A DNA stretch of 64,000 bases from Runella sp. MFBS21. GTDB lineage: Bacteria; Bacteroidota; Bacteroidia; Cytophagales; Spirosomataceae. The notes beneath the pieces were generated by a model. That model was not told the origin of the DNA. It worked only from the letters and a program-made list of their open reading frames with translations, and did no database searches. Location of the stretch: positions 1-64,000 of the forward strand of contig NZ_JARNTW010000026.1 of assembly GCF_029433105.1 (NCBI RefSeq). The letters run 5' to 3'. Of this stretch, positions 9,992 to 49,977 are shown in pieces; positions within the stretch are counted from its first letter, which is position 1; every line of letters begins with the position of its first letter. The position numbers and the translations under genes were made by a program.

Positions 9992-10020
9992 CAAAAATAC
10001 GATATGGCTACATAACTCAA
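9992..10020 (-). promoter_or_regulatory. Weak promoter candidate for the FAD oxidoreductase gene
   Basis: Minus strand TATTTTTG (9992-9999) matches the -7 element. A TTG at 10018-10020 is 18 nt upstream, only a partial -33. The leader to the start codon would be about 30 nt. Confidence 0.35.
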
Positions 10021-24604: not shown

Positions 24605-25150
24605 TTAAGCGGCTCCCGAGGGATGCTGTTTGCGAAATATAAGGGCTATCAACAATACCGCCATCACAATCAAAAGTAATGTAAAACGGAATTCATCAAA
24701 GATAAAACTTGAAGGTTCAAGCAGATCAATATCGGCTATTTTTTGATCATAGAGCTCTTTACCCCATACTTTGACAGCCTCTTCCTTATTGGTCAGGAGA
24801 GATTGGCGAAGGATGTTTTTATAGTGTAAAAGGGAATTTGGGAAAAAATAAAAAAACAAACTCGTAAGGTACCCACAAAACAATGCCCCCGTCAACCACA
24901 CTACATACCCAATCGAAATCCCTTCCCACATATGCATATAGCCTTTGCCAATATTTTTTCGATAATACCAACACGCCGCCGCAATCAGAATACTAAAGAA
25001 TCCAACGTCTAATAATCGGCTAGTGCTAGAAAATTTATCGAGGTTTTGCACTACCAAAAAAAACAAAAAGCAAACCAATCCCGCCACTAGTCCAAATAAG
25101 AGAGGAATCTTGAGTAAAGGTTTGTTGAAAAAGTTAATCACACTTTTCAT
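24605..25150 (-). CDS. DUF4199 membrane protein
   Basis: 181 aa with four predicted transmembrane helices (about 15-33, 42-60, 75-97 and 150-168) and an Asp/Lys-rich extracytoplasmic loop between helices 3 and 4 (YDQKIADIDLLEPSSF). This layout matches DUF4199, an uncharacterised Bacteroidota family. It begins 15 bp after the stop codon of the dihydroorotase-like gene, so the two are probably co-transcribed. A perfect DnaA box lies in that gap and another overlaps the upstream stop codon. Confidence 0.75.
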   Translation of the reverse strand: MKSVINFFNKPLLKIPLLFGLVAGLVCFLFFLVVQNLDKFSSTSRLLDVGFFSILIAAACWYYRKNIGKGYMHMWEGISIGYVVWLTGALFCGYLTSLFFYFFPNSLLHYKNILRQSLLTNKEEAVKVWGKELYDQKIADIDLLEPSSFIFDEFRFTLLLIVMAVLLIALIFRKQHPSGAA

Positions 25151-25153
25151 AAG

Positions 25154-25174
25154 TTATCCACATAGTTATCCACA
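25154..25174 (+). promoter_or_regulatory. Two perfect DnaA boxes in tandem
   Basis: TTATCCACA at 25154-25162 and again at 25166-25174, same orientation, 12 bp start to start. The first is in the gap before the DUF4199 gene; the second overlaps the stop codon of the dihydroorotase-like gene. A third perfect copy lies at 25377-25385 inside that gene. No other perfect copy was noticed outside the oriC region. Confidence 0.6.
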
Positions 25175-26437
25175 TTTCTCGACCATATTTCGATTTAGCA
25201 CATACAGCGCTTTGCCTTTTAATGGTTTTCCTAAAAATGGAGTGTTTTTAGATTGGGAACGGGTTTCGGTAAATATCCAATCCAATTCTGGGTCAAAAAT
25301 CGTCAAATTAGCTTTGTTTCCTTCCACAATACTTACTTCAGGAAGTCTTAAAATCTCACGAGGTTGGTGGGTGAATTTATCCACAATTTGCTCTAACTCT
25401 ACTTTTTGACGATAAGTGTTGAGCAAAGCAAAAGCGGTTTCAAGCCCCGTAATACCAAATTCGGCTAAATCAAATTCTAAGTTTTTTGATTCTTCATCTT
25501 GGGGATTATGATCCGAAACCACCGCATCAATGGTTCCGTCGGCTAGTCCTTCCCACAGGGCATCTATATCCTGTTGCGCACGGAAAGGCGGGTTGACTTT
25601 GTAATGTGTATCAAAATCACCTAAAACTGTGTCATCAAACGCAATCTGATGGGCTGCAATATCACATGAGACTGGCAATCCTTTTCTCTTGGCTTCTCTT
25701 ATAAGGGCTACTGAATTGGCAGTAGAAATAGTAGAAATATGTAAAATAGGTACATTACTATTGACTCCCACATACTCAAGCAACTTCAAATCTCGCATAA
25801 TCGTCAACTCTTCTGCGATAGAAGGGATGCCCCTCAAGCCTAATAAAGTGCTTGATTCGCCTTCGTTCATTTGACCAAAAACGGTTAAGTCATGATCTTC
25901 GGGGCGATTCATCAATACTCGATTGACTTGCTGTAAGTACTGGAGTGATTTTAAAAATATGTGGGTATTGTACAAAGAATGTATACCGTCTGAAAAAGCA
26001 ACAGCCCCCGCATGAGCTAGGTCAATCATTTCGGTAAAGTCTTTACCCTCACAGCTTTTTGTAACCGCTCCAATTGGATGCACATTTACGATTTTTCCAC
26101 GTGCTTTGTGCTTTACATATATCAAAGTATCCTTTGAGTCGAGAGCTGGTTTGGTATTTGGCAATATTGCTATCTCCGTAAATCCTCCCGCTTGGGCTGC
26201 GTCACAGGCGCTTGATAAGTCTTCTTTATGCTCATAACCTGGGTCATAAGCCGATACACGCATATCTACCCAGCCTGGTGATATGTGCCAATTGGATCCA
26301 CTTAATATTTCCGCTTCTGCAACTTCCAGAGAATCTTCGATTTGAACGATGTTTCCATTATCAATCAAAATATCCTTGGTTTGCCCATGATAGGGAGAGC
26401 GGCTATCCACTATTTTAACAGAACGAATCAGTAGCAT
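25166..26437 (-). CDS. Dihydroorotase-like protein lacking catalytic metal ligands
   Basis: 423 aa, full length for a class I dihydroorotase (closes or opens dihydroorotate in pyrimidine synthesis). The fold motifs are present: PGWVDM, PNTKP (93-97), FSDG, HISTISTANS (His 233), KVNPP and SDHNP (Asp 309). The paired metal-binding HxH, however, is Arg 60-Val-Ser 62, the usual second Asp of FSDDG is missing, and the His of HAED is Asn 177. Such a protein should not bind the binuclear zinc and is probably catalytically inactive, like PyrC' of pseudomonads, which supports aspartate carbamoyltransferase assembly. A normal pyrB lies at 57.4 kb. Whether they interact is inference. Confidence 0.88.
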   Translation of the reverse strand: MLLIRSVKIVDSRSPYHGQTKDILIDNGNIVQIEDSLEVAEAEILSGSNWHISPGWVDMRVSAYDPGYEHKEDLSSACDAAQAGGFTEIAILPNTKPALDSKDTLIYVKHKARGKIVNVHPIGAVTKSCEGKDFTEMIDLAHAGAVAFSDGIHSLYNTHIFLKSLQYLQQVNRVLMNRPEDHDLTVFGQMNEGESSTLLGLRGIPSIAEELTIMRDLKLLEYVGVNSNVPILHISTISTANSVALIREAKRKGLPVSCDIAAHQIAFDDTVLGDFDTHYKVNPPFRAQQDIDALWEGLADGTIDAVVSDHNPQDEESKNLEFDLAEFGITGLETAFALLNTYRQKVELEQIVDKFTHQPREILRLPEVSIVEGNKANLTIFDPELDWIFTETRSQSKNTPFLGKPLKGKALYVLNRNMVEKCG

Positions 26438-31596: not shown

Positions 31597-32949
31597 ATGT
31601 CTATAAGTGCCTTCAAAATCGTCGTATTAGGCGGAGGTGAAAGTGGCGTAGGTGCTGCTTTATTGGCGAAAGCCAAAGGATTTGATGTTTTTCTTTCGGA
31701 TAAAGGCGTTTTATCAGACGATTATAGGGCTATTCTTCATTCCAATCAGATTTCTTTTGAAGAAGGTCAGCACGACATACAACGCATACTTGCTGCTGAT
31801 GAAATTATCAAAAGCCCTGGTATCCCCGACAAAGTACCTTTGATACAGCAACTGCTCGCGCAGGGAACACCCATTATTTCTGAAATAGAATTTGCGGCTC
31901 GCTATACAAAAGCAAAGACAATCGCAATCACTGGCAGCAACGGAAAAACTACCACTACCCTTCTTACTTATCATTTACTGAAATCTGCCGGAATCAATGT
32001 AGGACTGGCAGGTAATATCGGAGAGAGTTTTGCAAAACAAGTCATTGACGACAAATTTGATTGGTTTGTGCTGGAACTCAGCAGTTTTCAGCTCGACAAC
32101 ATGTTTAATTTTAAAGCGGATGTGGGTATTTTGTTAAACATCACACCCGATCATCTTGACCGCTATGAGTATTCTTTCCAAAACTATATCAATTCCAAAT
32201 TTCGTCTGTTGCAAAATATGCAACCTCAAGATGACTTCATTTATTTTATAGACAATGAGGCTATCACCAAAGAGCTTCAACACAAACATTTCAATGTCAA
32301 CCACTTACCAATTTCTTTCTTAAAAAAGGAAACTAATGGTGGATTTTTTAGCAATGGGGTATTGGAAGTAATGTATCATACTCGTACTTTTGACATAAGA
32401 GCAGATGAGCTTCCCATCAAAGGTCCTCACAATGCTATCAATGCAATGGCAGCTACCTTGGCAGCGATGGCAGTGGGATTGAGTGATGAACAAATAAAAC
32501 ACGGATTATTGAGTTTTCGAAATGCGGCTCACCGGCTGGAGCCGATTGCAAATATCAATAATGTTTTATTTGTTAATGATTCAAAAGCCACCAATGTTGA
32601 TTCGGTGTTCTATGCTCTCAACAGTTACGATACCCCAATCATATGGATAGCTGGCGGAATCGACAAAGGCAACGACTATACCCAAGTCGAGGCTTTGGCC
32701 CGTCAAAAAGTAAAAGCCCTTATCTGTCTGGGCAAAGAAAATAGCAAACTTCTCTCGTTTTTTACCCCTATCGTTCCATTTGTTATTGAGACACAGGACG
32801 TTAAGGAGGCAGTACAACACGCTTTGTCATTAGCCACTGCTGGTGATGTGGTGTTGCTCTCACCTGCTTGTGCCAGTTTTGACTTGTTCAAAAACTATGA
32901 AGACCGCGGCGAACAATTCAAAGCGGCTGTGATGAGTTTTGTACCCTAA
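31597..32949 (+). CDS. murD: UDP-N-acetylmuramoyl-L-alanine--D-glutamate ligase
   Basis: 450 aa. It adds D-Glu to UDP-MurNAc-L-Ala in the cytoplasmic phase of peptidoglycan synthesis. It has the N-terminal uridine-binding Rossmann motif VLGGGESGVGAALLA, the Mur ligase ATP loop TGSNGKTTTT (about 111-120), the central HLDRYEYSF region, and the C-terminal substrate domain (FVNDSKATNVDS, WIAGGIDKGNDY, LLSPACASFD). It heads the visible dcw cluster and is separated from ftsW by 21 bp. The usual preceding genes (mraZ, mraW, ftsL, ftsI, murE, mraY) are not upstream. Confidence 0.97.
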   Translation: MSISAFKIVVLGGGESGVGAALLAKAKGFDVFLSDKGVLSDDYRAILHSNQISFEEGQHDIQRILAADEIIKSPGIPDKVPLIQQLLAQGTPIISEIEFAARYTKAKTIAITGSNGKTTTTLLTYHLLKSAGINVGLAGNIGESFAKQVIDDKFDWFVLELSSFQLDNMFNFKADVGILLNITPDHLDRYEYSFQNYINSKFRLLQNMQPQDDFIYFIDNEAITKELQHKHFNVNHLPISFLKKETNGGFFSNGVLEVMYHTRTFDIRADELPIKGPHNAINAMAATLAAMAVGLSDEQIKHGLLSFRNAAHRLEPIANINNVLFVNDSKATNVDSVFYALNSYDTPIIWIAGGIDKGNDYTQVEALARQKVKALICLGKENSKLLSFFTPIVPFVIETQDVKEAVQHALSLATAGDVVLLSPACASFDLFKNYEDRGEQFKAAVMSFVP

Positions 32950-43777: not shown

Positions 43778-43793
43778 TGCTTCACGTGGAACA
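43778..43793. other. parS-like ParB binding site
   Basis: TGCTTCACGTGGAACA; its reverse complement TGTTCCACGTGAAGCA differs from the bacterial parS consensus (TGTTNCACGTGAAACA) at one position. It lies in the 99-bp gap upstream of mnmG and 3.8 kb from the DnaA-box cluster, where origin-proximal parS sites are expected. Confidence 0.8.
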
Positions 43794-43849: not shown

Positions 43850-45712
43850 ATGTTTCCAAAATATGATGTAATAGTCGTAGGAGCAGGACATGCAGGATGC
43901 GAAGCGGCGGCGGCGGCGGCAAAGATGGGTTCGAGAGTCCTCCTTGTCACAATGAATATGCAAACGATAGCACAAATGTCATGCAACCCCGCAATGGGAG
44001 GAGTGGCAAAAGGGCAAATCGTTAGAGAGATAGACGCACTAGGAGGGCAGTCAGGAATCATTAGTGACAAAACAATGATTCAATTCAGAATGCTAAACCG
44101 CTCTAAAGGTCCAGCGATGTGGTCACCGAGATGCCAAAGCGATCGGATGAGATTCGCAGAAGAATGGCGCATGACTTTGGAGCAAACTCTGAATATTGAT
44201 TTTTGGCAAGATACCGCAAAAGAATTACTCATAAAAAACAAACAGGTAATCGGCATAAAAACAAGCCTCGGCATCGAAATTCAAAGTACTACAGTTGTAC
44301 TTACAAATGGGACATTTTTGAATGGTCTTATCCATATCGGTGAAAAAAACTTTGGTGGAGGAAGAGTAGGAGAGAAAGCCGCGACTGGTATTACAGAACA
44401 ATTAATGACATTGGGATTTGAATCAGGTCGGATGAAAACCGGCACTCCTCCTAGAATTGACGGGCGTTCATTGAACTACGAAAGAATGGAGGAACAACCC
44501 GGAGATGAGAATCCAGCGAATTTTTCTTATACCGATACACCCCAACTATCCCAACAAAGAAGTTGTTGGATTACCTATACCAATGAAGACGTACATGCGG
44601 TATTAAGAACAGGATTCGATAAATCGCCAATGTTTACGGGAAGGATAAAAGGACTAGGGCCTCGTTATTGCCCTTCAGTAGAAGATAAAATCAACCGATT
44701 TGCCGATAAAGACCGTCATCAAATATTCGTAGAACCAGAAGGATGGAATACGGTGGAAATATATGTAAATGGCTTTTCGACATCGCTACCAGAAGATATA
44801 CAATACAAAGCCTTACGGTTGATTCCAGGATTTGAAAATGCACGAATGTTTAGACCAGGTTACGCTATTGAATACGATTACTTTCCTCCGACTCAATTAC
44901 AGCTCACGCTAGAAACACATCTGATTAAAAACTTATTTTTTGCAGGTCAAATCAACGGTACAACTGGCTACGAAGAGGCGGCTTGCCAAGGATTAATTGC
45001 CGGAATAAATGCGCACCAAAATGCCCACGAACTTGAGCCTTTTATTCTGAAACGGTCGGAAGCATACATAGGAGTATTGGTAGATGACCTAGTCAATAAA
45101 GGCACAGAAGAGCCCTATCGAATGTTTACTTCAAGGGCCGAATATCGCACCTTATTAAGACAAGATAATGCCGATATTCGACTTACCGAGAAAGGGTATC
45201 AAATAGGTCTAGCAGATGAAGCCCGCTATCAAAGAGTAAAAGAGAAGGTTGCCAATACGGAGTTTATTCTCAACGAACTAAAAACTACAAAAGCAAATCC
45301 AGAAGAAGTAAATAGTCTTTTGGAAGAGTTGGGGACGACCACAATCAAAGAGAAACAACCACTTTATCATTTGCTCAAAAGGCCCAATATCGAGATAGAA
45401 GACCTAAAGAAAATCAAAGGCTCAGTATCAGAATTCCTCAACAAATACGATGAAGAAACCCTAGAACAAGCCATGATAACGGTCAAGTATGAGAGCTATA
45501 TCGAGAAAGAAAGACTCATGGTCGAAAAAATGAATAAACTCGAAGACCTCGAAATTATTTCAGAATTTGACTATGATAGGGTTTCTGCATTGTCGTTTGA
45601 AGGTCGTCAAAAACTCAAAACTATTCGTCCGCGTACCTTGGGGCAAGCCTCCCGAATAAGCGGTGTAAGCCCTTCCGATGTTTCTATTTTGATGGTATAC
45701 TTAGGAAGATAA
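43850..45712 (+). CDS. mnmG: tRNA uridine-5-carboxymethylaminomethyl modification enzyme MnmG (GidA)
   Basis: 620 aa FAD protein that, with MnmE, makes the cmnm5 modification of wobble uridine in several tRNAs. FAD motif VVGAGHAGCEAAAAAAK at the N-terminus, the catalytic-Cys region MSCNPAMGGVAKGQIVREID (quoted in part: CNPAMGG), the second Cys region RMKTGTPPRIDGRS, and the C-terminal MnmE/tRNA-binding helical domain ending RISGVSPSDVSILMVYLGR. The alanine run is coded by four GCG repeats, unusually GC-rich for this region. gidA next to oriC is a classic arrangement, although here the gene points toward the origin. Confidence 0.97.
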   Translation: MFPKYDVIVVGAGHAGCEAAAAAAKMGSRVLLVTMNMQTIAQMSCNPAMGGVAKGQIVREIDALGGQSGIISDKTMIQFRMLNRSKGPAMWSPRCQSDRMRFAEEWRMTLEQTLNIDFWQDTAKELLIKNKQVIGIKTSLGIEIQSTTVVLTNGTFLNGLIHIGEKNFGGGRVGEKAATGITEQLMTLGFESGRMKTGTPPRIDGRSLNYERMEEQPGDENPANFSYTDTPQLSQQRSCWITYTNEDVHAVLRTGFDKSPMFTGRIKGLGPRYCPSVEDKINRFADKDRHQIFVEPEGWNTVEIYVNGFSTSLPEDIQYKALRLIPGFENARMFRPGYAIEYDYFPPTQLQLTLETHLIKNLFFAGQINGTTGYEEAACQGLIAGINAHQNAHELEPFILKRSEAYIGVLVDDLVNKGTEEPYRMFTSRAEYRTLLRQDNADIRLTEKGYQIGLADEARYQRVKEKVANTEFILNELKTTKANPEEVNSLLEELGTTTIKEKQPLYHLLKRPNIEIEDLKKIKGSVSEFLNKYDEETLEQAMITVKYESYIEKERLMVEKMNKLEDLEIISEFDYDRVSALSFEGRQKLKTIRPRTLGQASRISGVSPSDVSILMVYLGR

Positions 45713-45910: not shown

Positions 45911-47578
45911 ATGATAGCACCATACAACCGTCCAAATTCTTGTCTATCTTACCTAAGAACTTTTTTTACATATACGGCTCTCTACTTTCTACTTCAATCT
46001 TGTGCCCAATCGGTTTCTCCTACGGGCGGTAAAAAAGATATAATTCCTCCTAGTCTTATAAAAAGTAATCCTATCCATAAACAAACCAACTACCGCCAAC
46101 AAACCGTAGAACTGGAGTTTGATGAATATATAGTGGTGGAGAATTTACAACAAAAACTTCTCATTACTCCAGATGCAGGAGAGTACAACTCCAAAGTAAA
46201 ACCCACTGGATTGCGAATTACATTTAAGCAACCCCTCGATTCTGCTACTACCTATTCTTTGGCATTTGGCGATGCTGTCAAAGATTTTAGCGAAAAAAAT
46301 CCAGCCAAAAATCTCCGACTTGTTTTTAGTACAGGTCCGATATTAGATTCCGCTTCGGTCTCAGGAACCGTCAAGGATTTGTTTACTAATAAACCCATGT
46401 TGGATGTTTTGGTAGGCCTTTACCCCAATACCGACACGCTCAATATTGAGAAAATGAAACCCAACTACTTTACTCGCTCTGATAGTTCGGGTAGGTTTAG
46501 TATTGAAAACATACACCCCAATTTTTATAAACTAATCGCTATCGATGACAAAAACCGCTCTTTGACCTACAATTCTAAGGCTGAGAGAATAGCATATTTA
46601 AGGGATAGTATCAGAGTTTTTGATTCTACGCAAATCTCAGACGTTTCAATGAAGCTATTTTTAGCCAATACGACCCCCTCAAAAGTGCGAAATACGCAGC
46701 CTAGAGCCAATTATTACTCCATCAATTATGATAAAGGATTTGTGGATTACAAAGTAAAATTTGACAATCCAGAAGACTCTATTCCGCATTTTCAGGCAGG
46801 AACCAATGAACTAAAGTTCTATAATACCAAAAATAAGAAGGACACTATACTTACCAAGATAATCATTAAAGACTCTCTCGGTATCCCGTTTGAACATGTC
46901 CAAAAAATCAAATTCAGAGAGAGTAGGGGAGGAGGTAAAAATGCAGACAGTAACCGAGACCCCTTCGAAATGAAAACGAATTTTAAAGAAGGTGAAGAAA
47001 TAGAACCACGTTTGGTAAATCTAAAGTTTACATTTACGAAGCCCCTTCAAATAGCAAAACCAGAGCAACTAGAGTTTTATAGTGATAGCACCAGAACTGA
47101 AAAAGTAGCACTTACCGACTATAAATGGGAAAATAATAATACTATTCTTTCGCTTTCAAGGCCTATTAGCGCACGAAGAGAATTTAAAATTATCATTCCA
47201 AAAAACACCTTTATCAGTGTTGAAAACGATACTATCCCGGCTAAAACATACAAACTACCTATCATGGACGAAGAAGACTACGGAACACTAGAAGGCGAAA
47301 TAAAAGGAAGCGATGATAATCTTATTGTGGAACTTCTAGATGATAAGTATGAAGTAGTCAAAACAATCACAGGGCAAAAGTCTTATAGCTTCACCTATTT
47401 AAAACCCGCCTCATACTATCTGCGCGTCATTGTGGATAAAAACAACAATGGTCGTTGGGATTCAGGAGACATTAAGCAAAAAACCTTAGCTGAACCCATC
47501 ATCTTTCACCCTGATGAGGTCAAAGTGAAGAAAAATTTTGTAATGAGTGGTATAGATATAGACTTATCCACAAAATAA
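45911..47578 (+). CDS. Ig-like (Big_5) domain lipoprotein
   Basis: 555 aa. The N-terminus has a lipoprotein signal ending YFLLQSC (Cys about 31), a little long because of a basic 15-residue start. Mature residues about 45-135 form a bacterial Ig-like domain of the SbsA type (Big_5: IPPSLIKSNP, VELEFDEYI, LRITFKQPLDSATTYSLAFGDAV). The rest is beta-rich with an Ig- or transthyretin-like segment (VSGTVKDLFTNKPMLDVLVGLYP) and a C-terminal YYLRVIVDKNNNGRWDSGD motif. It is surface- or periplasm-exposed with no known activity. Its last codons contain the first perfect DnaA box of the origin. Confidence 0.82.
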   Translation: MIAPYNRPNSCLSYLRTFFTYTALYFLLQSCAQSVSPTGGKKDIIPPSLIKSNPIHKQTNYRQQTVELEFDEYIVVENLQQKLLITPDAGEYNSKVKPTGLRITFKQPLDSATTYSLAFGDAVKDFSEKNPAKNLRLVFSTGPILDSASVSGTVKDLFTNKPMLDVLVGLYPNTDTLNIEKMKPNYFTRSDSSGRFSIENIHPNFYKLIAIDDKNRSLTYNSKAERIAYLRDSIRVFDSTQISDVSMKLFLANTTPSKVRNTQPRANYYSINYDKGFVDYKVKFDNPEDSIPHFQAGTNELKFYNTKNKKDTILTKIIIKDSLGIPFEHVQKIKFRESRGGGKNADSNRDPFEMKTNFKEGEEIEPRLVNLKFTFTKPLQIAKPEQLEFYSDSTRTEKVALTDYKWENNNTILSLSRPISARREFKIIIPKNTFISVENDTIPAKTYKLPIMDEEDYGTLEGEIKGSDDNLIVELLDDKYEVVKTITGQKSYSFTYLKPASYYLRVIVDKNNNGRWDSGDIKQKTLAEPIIFHPDEVKVKKNFVMSGIDIDLSTK

Positions 47579-48138
47579 TTCACAATTATCACATTGTGTG
47601 GATAAGCTATTTAGGGTTTTGGCTCATTATTTGTGAACTGTTTAAAAAGAGCAATGTTAATATAAGGCTGTGAAACTACATTTTCACAAAAAATCAAAAG
47701 TTGCGGAAAAAATGTGAATAATAATGTGGATAACTATCATAGCAGTGGGTAAGTTGGTGGATAAGTACTCGCATAACTTGTAGATAACCTTCCAAAAGTG
47801 TGGATAAAAAGTTATACACATCCAGACTGTTTGTAATCATCCCCTTTTTACACATATTTTCAAGGTGTTTTAAACAGTAAAAACCGTGGATAAACAACCT
47901 TCCACATCGTTGATAAAAATATCCACAATCCACCAGTAATTGTGAATATTTGCATATATTCCTGAAAAACAGTAATTTCAGTTGTGGATAAAAATAAAAT
48001 ACTGTGGATAAACCTCTCATTTATTCACATGTTCGTTTTAGAGTAACGTGGAAAACTAGTTGATAACTTTATTGTCCACATATCCACGGCGGTAATGAAC
48101 TTTAATAGTTTTAAAAATTAAATATTTAAGTTATTAAA
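47564..48138. other. oriC: Probable chromosomal replication origin (oriC)
   Basis: A stretch of about 560 bp without a gene. Perfect DnaA boxes TTATCCACA lie at 47564-47572 (+), and as TGTGGATAA at 47597-47605, 47725-47733, 47799-47807, 47983-47991 and 48003-48011 (-). Boxes fitting TTWTNCACA lie at 47713-47721 (-), 47812-47820 (+), 47846-47854 (+) and 48021-48029 (+). One-mismatch copies are at about 47759, 47779, 47885 and 47919. An AT-rich tract at about 48099-48138, just before the TPR gene, is a likely unwinding element. mnmG and a parS-like site lie within 4.4 kb. dnaA itself is not in the window. Confidence 0.88.
48099..48138. other. AT-rich candidate DNA unwinding element
   Basis: Almost pure A/T (ACTTTAATAGTTTTAAAAAT and on to the start codon at 48139), directly next to the DnaA-box cluster. 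The placement fits a duplex-unwinding element. No clear DnaA-trio repeat was recognised. Confidence 0.5.
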
Positions 48139-49977
48139 ATGGGTGCAAGAAAAGTGTGTATAACCTCGCTCTATCGCTCAGCGTACTTATTAGGAATTTT
48201 TTCACTTTGGAGTTATACAAGTTGTCTTGCCCAAAGTGATGCAGATTTGGCTGATGCTTATTTCCAAAAAGGAGAATGTGACAAAGTGGTGACGCTTTAT
48301 CAAAAAGTGCTGCGTAAAGACTTCAATAAAATTTATTTGAGGAGATATGTGAACTGCATGATCAAATTGAAAAACTTTGAAGAAGCAGAGAAATTCTTTA
48401 AACGTCAGCAGAAAGCTGACGAAAAGTTTGGATACTTATACACACTGTATTGGGGACGAATGCTTGAGCAAATGGGACAAGTGCCTGCAGCTACTCTCAA
48501 ATACCAAGAAAGTATCGCTCAAGCTCCACCCAAAGATATCAATGCCTATAAAGATCTCTCGGAAGAATTTAGAGAAATAGACAATACGGAAGCAGCTATC
48601 AATGCCTTGCTCAAAGGCAGAGACATGGCAGGAAACGATAATCTCTTTAAAATGGAATTGGCGGCTTTGTATGCGCAAACCGGAAAAACCGAGCAGATGA
48701 TTGAGGAGCTTTTAAGCCTAGGTGTAGTTATTCAGAGCAAAGAAGTGATTCAAAACTATTTTCAGGATTTTTTGCGGGAAGAAAAAGACCAAGCCAAGTT
48801 TGAAAAAATTCTTTATGAAAAAATTCAAAGACAACCTAATGAAACTTTCTATGCTGAAATGCTCATTTGGTTTTTGACCCAAAAGAAGCAGTTCAGTAAA
48901 GCATTTATACAAGAAAGAGCGCTAGATAGACGACTCAAATATAACGGCGCAAAAATATTTGATCTTGGAAATCTAGCTTTACAAAATAAAGACTATGGAG
49001 CTTCTATACAATCGTTTGAGTACATCATCAAAGAGTATCCGCAAGGACAGCTATATCCTTATGCAAGGCGCATGGTCATCGTGGCAAGAGAAGAACAAGT
49101 CAAAAATACTTTTCCTATTGAGCAAGCCGCTGTAAGAAAACTGATAGAAGATTACAAAAAACTATTGGGAGAATTGGGTCAAAATAATCGTACCCTTGAT
49201 GCAATGAGAAGTATGGCCAATCTATACGCTTTTTATCTCAACGAAAAAGATACGGCCACAGTCATCTTACAAAATGCGATAAAAATTGGCAGAGCAGAAA
49301 GTGACTTTATAGATAAGTGCAAATTGGATTTGGGGGATATCTTTTTGCTTAAAAACGAACCTTGGGAATCGACACTATTATACTCTCAAGTCGAAAAGTC
49401 TCAAAAAGAAACCCCACTAGGCTACGAAGCTAAGTTAAGAAATGCCCGACTCAACTATTATAAAGGTGATTTTGCGTTGGCAAAAGACATCTTAGATATT
49501 CTAAAAATGGCAACTTCTCGGGAAATTGCCAATGATGCCGGCTCATTGAGTTTGTTGATTCAAGATAATACGGGTTTAGATACGTCAGAAGCTGCGATGA
49601 GAGAATACGCAGCAATAGACCTATTACTTTATCAAAATCAAACTACGGAGGCGTTAGCGGCCTTAGACGAGCTCTTTAAAAAATATAAAGATCATTCCTT
49701 AGCCGACGAAATATTGTGGCTCAAAGCACGGACCTATGCCAAAATGGGTGATCATCAGAAGGCGGTGGATAACTTACAGCAAATTGTGGAAAAGTTCTCT
49801 GCTGATATATTAGCGGATGATGCCTTGTTTATGATGGCCGAGCTTTACCAAAATCGTTTTAAGGATAAAGAAAAAGCAATGGAACTTTACCAAACTATCC
49901 TTGAAAAACATCCTGCGAGTATTTATGGGGCGGAAGCCAGAAAACAGTTCCGACTTTTGAGAGGAGATTCTTTATAA
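48139..49977 (+). CDS. Secreted tetratricopeptide repeat protein
   Basis: 612 aa. Signal peptide to about residue 31 (YTSCLAQ), then TPR helices over the whole length: DAYFQKGECDKVVTLYQKVL near the N-terminus, ALAALDELFKKYKDHSLADEIL, DHQKAVDNLQQIVEKFSADI and KAMELYQTILEKHPASIYG near the end. The last repeats resemble those of YbgF/BamD-type periplasmic proteins that bind envelope complexes. It is the first gene right of the putative origin, co-directional with replication, and is followed by a phosphatase gene after 8 bp, so the two are likely co-transcribed. Confidence 0.85.
   Translation: MGARKVCITSLYRSAYLLGIFSLWSYTSCLAQSDADLADAYFQKGECDKVVTLYQKVLRKDFNKIYLRRYVNCMIKLKNFEEAEKFFKRQQKADEKFGYLYTLYWGRMLEQMGQVPAATLKYQESIAQAPPKDINAYKDLSEEFREIDNTEAAINALLKGRDMAGNDNLFKMELAALYAQTGKTEQMIEELLSLGVVIQSKEVIQNYFQDFLREEKDQAKFEKILYEKIQRQPNETFYAEMLIWFLTQKKQFSKAFIQERALDRRLKYNGAKIFDLGNLALQNKDYGASIQSFEYIIKEYPQGQLYPYARRMVIVAREEQVKNTFPIEQAAVRKLIEDYKKLLGELGQNNRTLDAMRSMANLYAFYLNEKDTATVILQNAIKIGRAESDFIDKCKLDLGDIFLLKNEPWESTLLYSQVEKSQKETPLGYEAKLRNARLNYYKGDFALAKDILDILKMATSREIANDAGSLSLLIQDNTGLDTSEAAMREYAAIDLLLYQNQTTEALAALDELFKKYKDHSLADEILWLKARTYAKMGDHQKAVDNLQQIVEKFSADILADDALFMMAELYQNRFKDKEKAMELYQTILEKHPASIYGAEARKQFRLLRGDSL

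Follow-up and report, generated by a model that had tools for sequence, protein, structure and literature searches.

Does the box-rich DNA between an Ig-like protein gene and a TPR-repeat protein gene of a Runella bacterium serve as its chromosomal replication origin (oriC)? The window, that is, the whole stretch of DNA analysed (64,000 nucleotides, C19:1-64000), belongs to a genome of 7.88 Mb in 72 contigs. The TPR protein encoded from position 48139 showed 99% identity to its counterpart in Runella zeae DSM 19591, so the source is that species or a very near one. A first-pass annotation of the window had read 47564-48138 as a probable oriC and had described it as lacking a gene. The sole open reading frame inside it (108 amino acids, 47694-48020, minus strand) was indeed rejected as a gene, since in-frame stops were present in the matches of 9 of the 10 loci tested and the frame was open in R. 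zeae DSM 19591 only, but at the left edge the first box overlapped the last codons of the upstream gene. A further, seventh perfect box in reverse orientation was located at 47431, inside the same Ig-like gene. An Rfam scan of the window returned three tRNAs only. The features of the locus are collected in the table.

Table. Features at and around the proposed origin, in positions of the window
Feature	Position	Strand	Basis or remark
mnmG (gidA)	43850..45712	+	TIGR00136, E 7.5e-252; 1.85 kb from array
parS-like site TGCTTCACGTGGAACA	43778..43793	+	two mismatches to TGTTTCACGTGAAACA; 3.8 kb from array
Ig-like (Big_5) protein gene	45911..47578	+	PF13205; directly upstream of box array
Proposed oriC, DnaA-box cluster and A+T tract	47564..48138		box excess over shuffles; conserved upstream of TPR gene
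Perfect DnaA box	47564..47572	+	in last codons of upstream gene (ends 47578)
Perfect DnaA box	47597..47605	-	sequence match
Dyad TGTGAAACTACATTTTCACA	47669..47688		inside array
Variant box TTATTCACA	47713..47721	-	TTWTNCACA
Perfect DnaA box	47725..47733	-	equal position in Runella loci
One-mismatch box TTATCCACC	47756..47764	-	sequence match
One-mismatch box TTATCTACA	47779..47787	-	sequence match
Perfect DnaA box	47799..47807	-	sequence match
Variant box TTATACACA	47812..47820	+	TTWTNCACA
Variant box TTTTACACA	47846..47854	+	TTWTNCACA
One-mismatch box TTATCCACG	47885..47893	-	sequence match
One-mismatch box ATATCCACA	47919..47927	+	sequence match
Perfect DnaA box	47983..47991	-	sequence match
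Perfect DnaA box	48003..48011	-	sequence match
Variant box TTATTCACA	48021..48029	+	TTWTNCACA
Tandem forward pair TTGTCCACA (48072, one mismatch) and ATATCCACG (48080, two mismatches)	48072..48088	+	proposed guide boxes of unwinding module
Short G+C-rich spacer, then A+T tract	48089..48138	+	proposed DNA-unwinding element, by composition
TPR-repeat protein gene	48139..49977	+	Pfam TPR models; directly downstream of array; synteny anchor

The crowding of DnaA boxes in 47564-48138 was as pronounced as had been annotated. Six perfect TTATCCACA boxes were counted, five in reverse and one in forward orientation, and the number of boxes with at most one mismatch to TTATCCACA rose to 14, eight of which carried one mismatch where the annotation had spoken of several. 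The degenerate pattern TTWTNCACA was matched 10 times, by the six perfect boxes and by exactly four variants beyond them (at least four had been claimed). Across 2000 dinucleotide-shuffled versions of the 575 bp, the mean number of perfect boxes was 0.008 (maximum 1) against the six observed, and the mean number of boxes within one mismatch was 0.33 (maximum 4) against 14.

Conservation of the array was followed with the TPR gene as anchor, whose protein profile matched 115 of 118 Cytophagales genomes. Among 34 named loci, 17 carried a cluster directly upstream of this gene, namely eight Runella-labelled loci, L037, L016, two Telluribacter, one Dyadobacter, two Fibrisoma, Persicobacter and Thermonema. 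The make-up of these clusters varied: each of the two Fibrisoma loci contained 0 perfect and 6 one-mismatch boxes, while Thermonema rossianum (L042, upstream of position 10001) contained 18 perfect boxes in about 600 bp. Persicobacter (L036) had another group of three boxes at a distance of 8.6 kb and one of five boxes at 0.29 Mb. No cluster was found in the other 17 named loci, which comprised Rufibacter, Adhaeribacter, Sabulibacter and several MAGs and included L040, a locus without upstream sequence. Within Runella, box positions and directions were largely common to the loci, and the box at 47564..47572 was perfect too in 8 of 8 Runella-labelled loci and in L037.

A wider survey covered the kilobase upstream of the TPR gene in 90 Cytophagales genomes (two of the stretches were shorter, 808 and 843 bases). 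A cluster was scored when at least five boxes lay within one mismatch of TTATCCACA and outnumbered those of any of 60 shuffles or, alternatively, when at least three exact TTATTCACA copies and five within one mismatch of TTATTCACA were present. By this rule, 44 of the 90 genomes from 10 of 17 families carried a cluster upstream of the same TPR gene. All nine genomes read from the window's own family (f1) did so, the tenth f1 genome of the sample having been left out, and the other families with a cluster were f4 (3/9), f5 (6/6), f9 (4/4), f13 (6/9), f15 (1/1), f16 (1/1), f17 (6/7), f18 (1/1) and f21 (7/7). The 46 genomes without a cluster included all those read from f2 (9), f3 (1), f6 (1), f10 (3), f11 (9), f14 (9) and f19 (4). 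The suggestion that box spacing and polarity represent an architecture specific to this lineage was therefore not borne out, given the boxes shared within Runella and the presence of the cluster at this site in most of the families. Judged from this distribution rather than from a tree, the origin site beside the TPR gene is probably ancestral in Cytophagales, several families having lost it, moved it or changed its boxes.

The GC skew marked the proposed origin more sharply in relatives than on the window's own contig. The annotation had expected the minimum of the cumulative skew near 47.8 kb. On the own contig, of which 84,000 of 88,395 bases were read, the minimum fell at 32,319 (-712) on a plateau that extended to about 56 kb, with a value of -645 at 48 kb. 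This agreed only roughly, within 15 kb, with an origin in the region and did not place it at 47.8 kb. Because of this imprecision, sampling was extended to two other Runella genomes, on the largest contig of each, and in both of them the switch from negative to positive skew did fall at the orthologous site. The first (G006:C1, 7,432,530 bp, from a 7.6-Mb genome in 4 contigs) was covered with 40 samples of 20 kb. All 20 samples at 2.20-5.84 Mb were negative, and the other 20 consisted of 19 positive ones and a slightly negative one at 7.40 Mb. The TPR gene of this genome occupies 5846334-5848169 on the minus strand, which puts the start of the orthologous upstream site at 5848170. Binned at 5 kb, the skew stayed negative throughout as far as 5.848 Mb, was close to zero in three bins at 5.848-5.863 Mb and was positive in 15 of 15 bins beyond, with the cumulative minimum in the bin ending at 5.863 Mb, about 15 kb or less from the site (5.848 Mb). 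The opposite switch took place at 2.16-2.20 Mb, where three samples at 2.06-2.16 Mb were positive and that at 2.20 Mb was negative; its distance of about 3.67 Mb from the site compares with 3.72 Mb for half of the contig.

The second contig (G004:C1, 6,810,953 bp) gave the same picture in 27 samples, of which the 14 at 1.0-4.22 Mb were negative and the 13 elsewhere positive, one of them being about zero (0.0009). The sign turned between the 4.22-Mb and the 4.24-Mb sample, and the site lies at 4.227 Mb (TPR gene 4225542-4227377); the opposite switch occurred between 0.77 and 1.0 Mb. A separate observation concerns Rufibacter (L026, G013:C1), which has no cluster at its TPR gene (0.54 Mb), yet its skew, weak and noisy, changed sign within 0.40-0.58 Mb. 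The Rufibacter origin may thus lie near the TPR gene, with other boxes or slightly moved.

An origin also needs to be opened, and the gene-side end of the array has a composition suited to this. The nearly pure A/T tract noted by the first-pass annotation was confirmed at 48094-48138 (91% A+T), and it adjoins the boxes. The core CAC[AT]T[AT]TCC of the tandem forward pair was present in 16 of 16 aligned rows, and this end of the rows ran in the same order from the tandem core through a few G+C-rich bases and TAAT-rich sequence to the A+T tract. By their arrangement and composition, the tandem pair, the spacer and the A+T tract are likely to form the unwinding site. The basal unwinding system (BUS) of B. 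subtilis is described as DnaA-boxes, a spacer and DnaA-trios (PMC8287927, PMC6669920). The published trio pattern calls for three or more 3'-NAN-5' triplets in succession, no farther than 16 bp from a box that itself has two mismatches at most, and the commonest spacer between box and trios is 13 bp (PMC8287927). The window resembles this system in its tandem forward boxes, short spacer, A+T tract and 13-bp spacing, as four consecutive trio-like triplets start at 48102, 13 bp after the box at 48080, with none on the mirrored strand. It differs in that the trio pattern itself stands at chance level: when the tract was shuffled 5000 times with the boxes fixed, 59% of the shuffles reached three triplets and 24% reached four. 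The pattern in the window is no better than chance and proves nothing there.

Among relatives, the likeness to the BUS extended to the NTA triplet repeats that follow the boxes. In every locus with a cluster (44 in all), the forward box was selected after which the most A+T-rich stretch follows, and the next 45 bases were examined. Runs were allowed to start up to 20 bases after the box, a range that missed the window's run of four described above. Seven of the 44 loci were dropped because the chosen box lay more than 330 bp away from where the stretch ends. Runs of at least three NTA triplets were present in 15 of the remaining 37 loci against 2.6 expected from shuffled letters, and the mean 3-base periodicity of the 37 loci was 0.45 against 0.34 in shuffles (largest mean of a shuffle set, 0.38). 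In the same test, the window's genome had a run of 1 and a periodicity of 0.34 against 0.30 shuffled. The repeats in relatives favour trios, as support rather than proof, the boxes having been chosen by A+T content and the relatives not being independent; repeats of the pure TAA type, moreover, cannot settle which strand is used.

Other places in the genome were compared with the array. Perfect TTATCCACA copies numbered 117 (60 forward and 57 reverse) in 7.88 Mb, against 59 for the backward-pattern control. Of these, 113 were located, and the other 4 lie beyond C45:200195. The densest other groups among the located copies contained three boxes each (window 25154-25385 and C5:172128-173345). 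The four unlocated copies together with one located neighbour could make up a group of at most five, and a larger group of perfect boxes elsewhere is therefore impossible. The first-pass annotation had named a similar, stronger cluster elsewhere as evidence that would speak against it, and among perfect boxes none was found. The fetched groups on C5 (three) and C30 (two) had no adjoining one-mismatch boxes. The three perfect boxes at 25154-25385 lay in and at the 3' end of a gene at 25166-26437 (minus), which from a reading of its protein we take to be dihydroorotase-like, and just upstream of a gene at 24605-25150 (minus). Given this setting and the lack of neighbouring one-mismatch boxes, the group was judged incidental as a candidate origin. 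The dnaA gene sits on a separate contig (C67), and no box within one mismatch was found in the 4.4 kb around it. In the surrounding 20 kb, five isolated one-mismatch boxes were present without any cluster, and an origin at dnaA was rejected on this ground.

Two neighbouring elements were also considered. The annotation had placed mnmG and a parS-like site within 4.4 kb of the array, which was correct for both, the latter with two mismatches to TGTTTCACGTGAAACA, which we take to be the 16-mer parS consensus. Matches to it with two mismatches are expected 0.32 times in the window by chance. For TGTTYCACGTGRAACA, a pattern selected with knowledge of the site, no second position in the genome came within one mismatch. 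Together with the ParB gene of this genome, carried on C23, the parS-like site may lend oriC some weaker support. The dyad inside the array was the only perfect TGTGAAA-N6-TTTCACA in the genome, and within one mismatch the motif occurred at five places against three for the backward control. All nine additional Runella or near-Runella loci shared it (one base being changed in L010), L016 had a shorter form, and it was not found in L017, L019 and L020. Perhaps, as a matter of speculation, the dyad is a binding site for an origin regulator. Another element, CTGAAAAACAGTAATTTCAG at 47962-47981, contained no box and was nearly unchanged in the Runella alignment rows; it may bind another protein.

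Can the array be explained otherwise? Dense box clusters need not be origins, and the array could be a DnaA-titration or regulatory reservoir near the true origin, like datA of E. coli, a reading to which the own-contig skew minimum 15 kb away also lends itself. We consider it improbable, however, because the skew of two relatives switches within about 15-20 kb of the orthologous site, no larger perfect-box group exists nearby or elsewhere, and the gene-side end of the array has a conserved tandem box core followed by an A+T tract. Still less credible is the proposal that DnaA regulates the TPR-protein gene at 48139 through these boxes. The position of the cluster directly upstream of this gene in 44 of the 90 genomes would suit it, but the other 46 have the gene without the cluster, and one promoter explains neither the number of boxes (14 in the window and 27 in G080, a relative of family f4) nor the skew switch. 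As for a chance or low-complexity artefact, nothing beyond the regional A+T richness speaks for it, and it is refuted by the shuffles, none of the 2000 reaching the observed counts (the annotation's "far beyond chance"), and by the conservation of the cluster across genera.

The box cluster, the A+T tract, the GC-skew switch in two Runella genomes and the conservation of the site make oriC the best reading, and 47564-48138 is very probably the chromosomal replication origin of this Runella zeae-like bacterium. On this central point the first-pass annotation was upheld, by the lack of any larger perfect-box group and by the keeping of the cluster across many Cytophagales as well. Weighing against this reading are the own-contig skew minimum, the 46 Cytophagales genomes that have no cluster at the site, the chance-level trio pattern with little 3-base periodicity in the window's tract, and the two mismatches of the parS-like site. 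We infer that DnaA binds there, that the DNA opens, that the helicase is loaded and that replication starts. In the mechanism that we propose, DnaA, encoded on another contig, would occupy the array, whose perfect and weaker boxes mostly face in reverse. Acting through the tandem pair in forward orientation, it would open the adjoining A+T tract, at which the replicative helicase would then be loaded and from which two forks would leave.

Compared with bacterial origins of the TTATCCACA or TTWTNCACA kind, the locus is alike in box sequence, in clustering, in its adjoining A+T-rich element, in the position of the skew switch in relatives and in the nearby mnmG, a gene that E. coli oriC also adjoins. 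It differs in that dnaA lies on another contig and the neighbours are genes for an Ig-like and a TPR protein, and in that five of the six perfect boxes are reversed, whereas the tandem pair next to the A+T tract faces forward. The Runella origin thus seems ordinary in kind and of an already known type, while its site beside the TPR gene seems old and common to many relatives. Among the matches listed, no title or beginning of an abstract described the locus, although its position may have been predicted already, for example in DoriC; in the portions of literature matched for "Runella" together with "oriC", the string "oric" occurred only within an unrelated taxon name.

Family f4 offered a lead on how the boxes at this site may change, and 13 of its genomes were compared. 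Upstream of the TPR gene, exact TTATTCACA and TTATCCACA copies numbered 15 and 0 in G053 (L133), 13 and 0 in G135 (L269), and 3 and 0 in both G067 (L136) and G136 (L268). G080 (L270) had 24 TTATCCACA copies and 1 of TTATTCACA, with 27 boxes within one mismatch. The corresponding DnaA motif read GNRDHTTVIHA in G080 and GGRDHSTVIHA in the window's genome. At the residue equivalent to E. coli 438, in the recognition helix (helix 5), isoleucine was present in both of these and in three other aligned DnaAs from outside f4 (G082, G045 and G087), and serine or threonine in ten f4 genomes (G053, G067, G137, G117, G135, G128, G092, G020, G038 and G105). G134 had alanine there and only 95 upstream bases, and no DnaA was found for G136, a genome 62% complete. 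Box type and residue therefore agreed in the three of three TTATTCACA-box genomes with a DnaA found (serine or threonine) and in G080 with its TTATCCACA boxes (isoleucine). Counting against this lead, 7 of the ten serine/threonine genomes had fewer than three exact TTATTCACA copies at the site; within one mismatch, G137 had six, G117 five, and G020, G038, G105, G128 and G092 none to three.

For Epsilonproteobacteria, a T at the fifth box position and boxes with a TTCAC core are described, and many DnaAs of epsilon/delta proteobacteria are reported to have a polar serine at position 438 (PMC5043019). The f4 relatives alone resemble those origins, in their TTATTCACA boxes and polar residue at the 438-equivalent; the window differs, with TTATCCACA boxes and a DnaA isoleucine there. 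We give about an even chance to the scenario in which the site is ancestral to Cytophagales, kept its place in several families and, in f4, saw its boxes become TTATTCACA along with the change at the 438-equivalent, an independent repeat of what is found in Epsilonproteobacteria.

These results fix a probable origin for a genome in 72 contigs, and they make the TPR gene a simple anchor for origins in many Cytophagales, which is useful because dnaA does not mark the origin in the Runella genome studied. An otherwise ordinary locus gains some interest from how widely its site is conserved and from the box change in f4. If the box change is real, one syntenic origin would be available with DnaA and site both before and after it, and the co-evolution of initiator and box would become directly testable.
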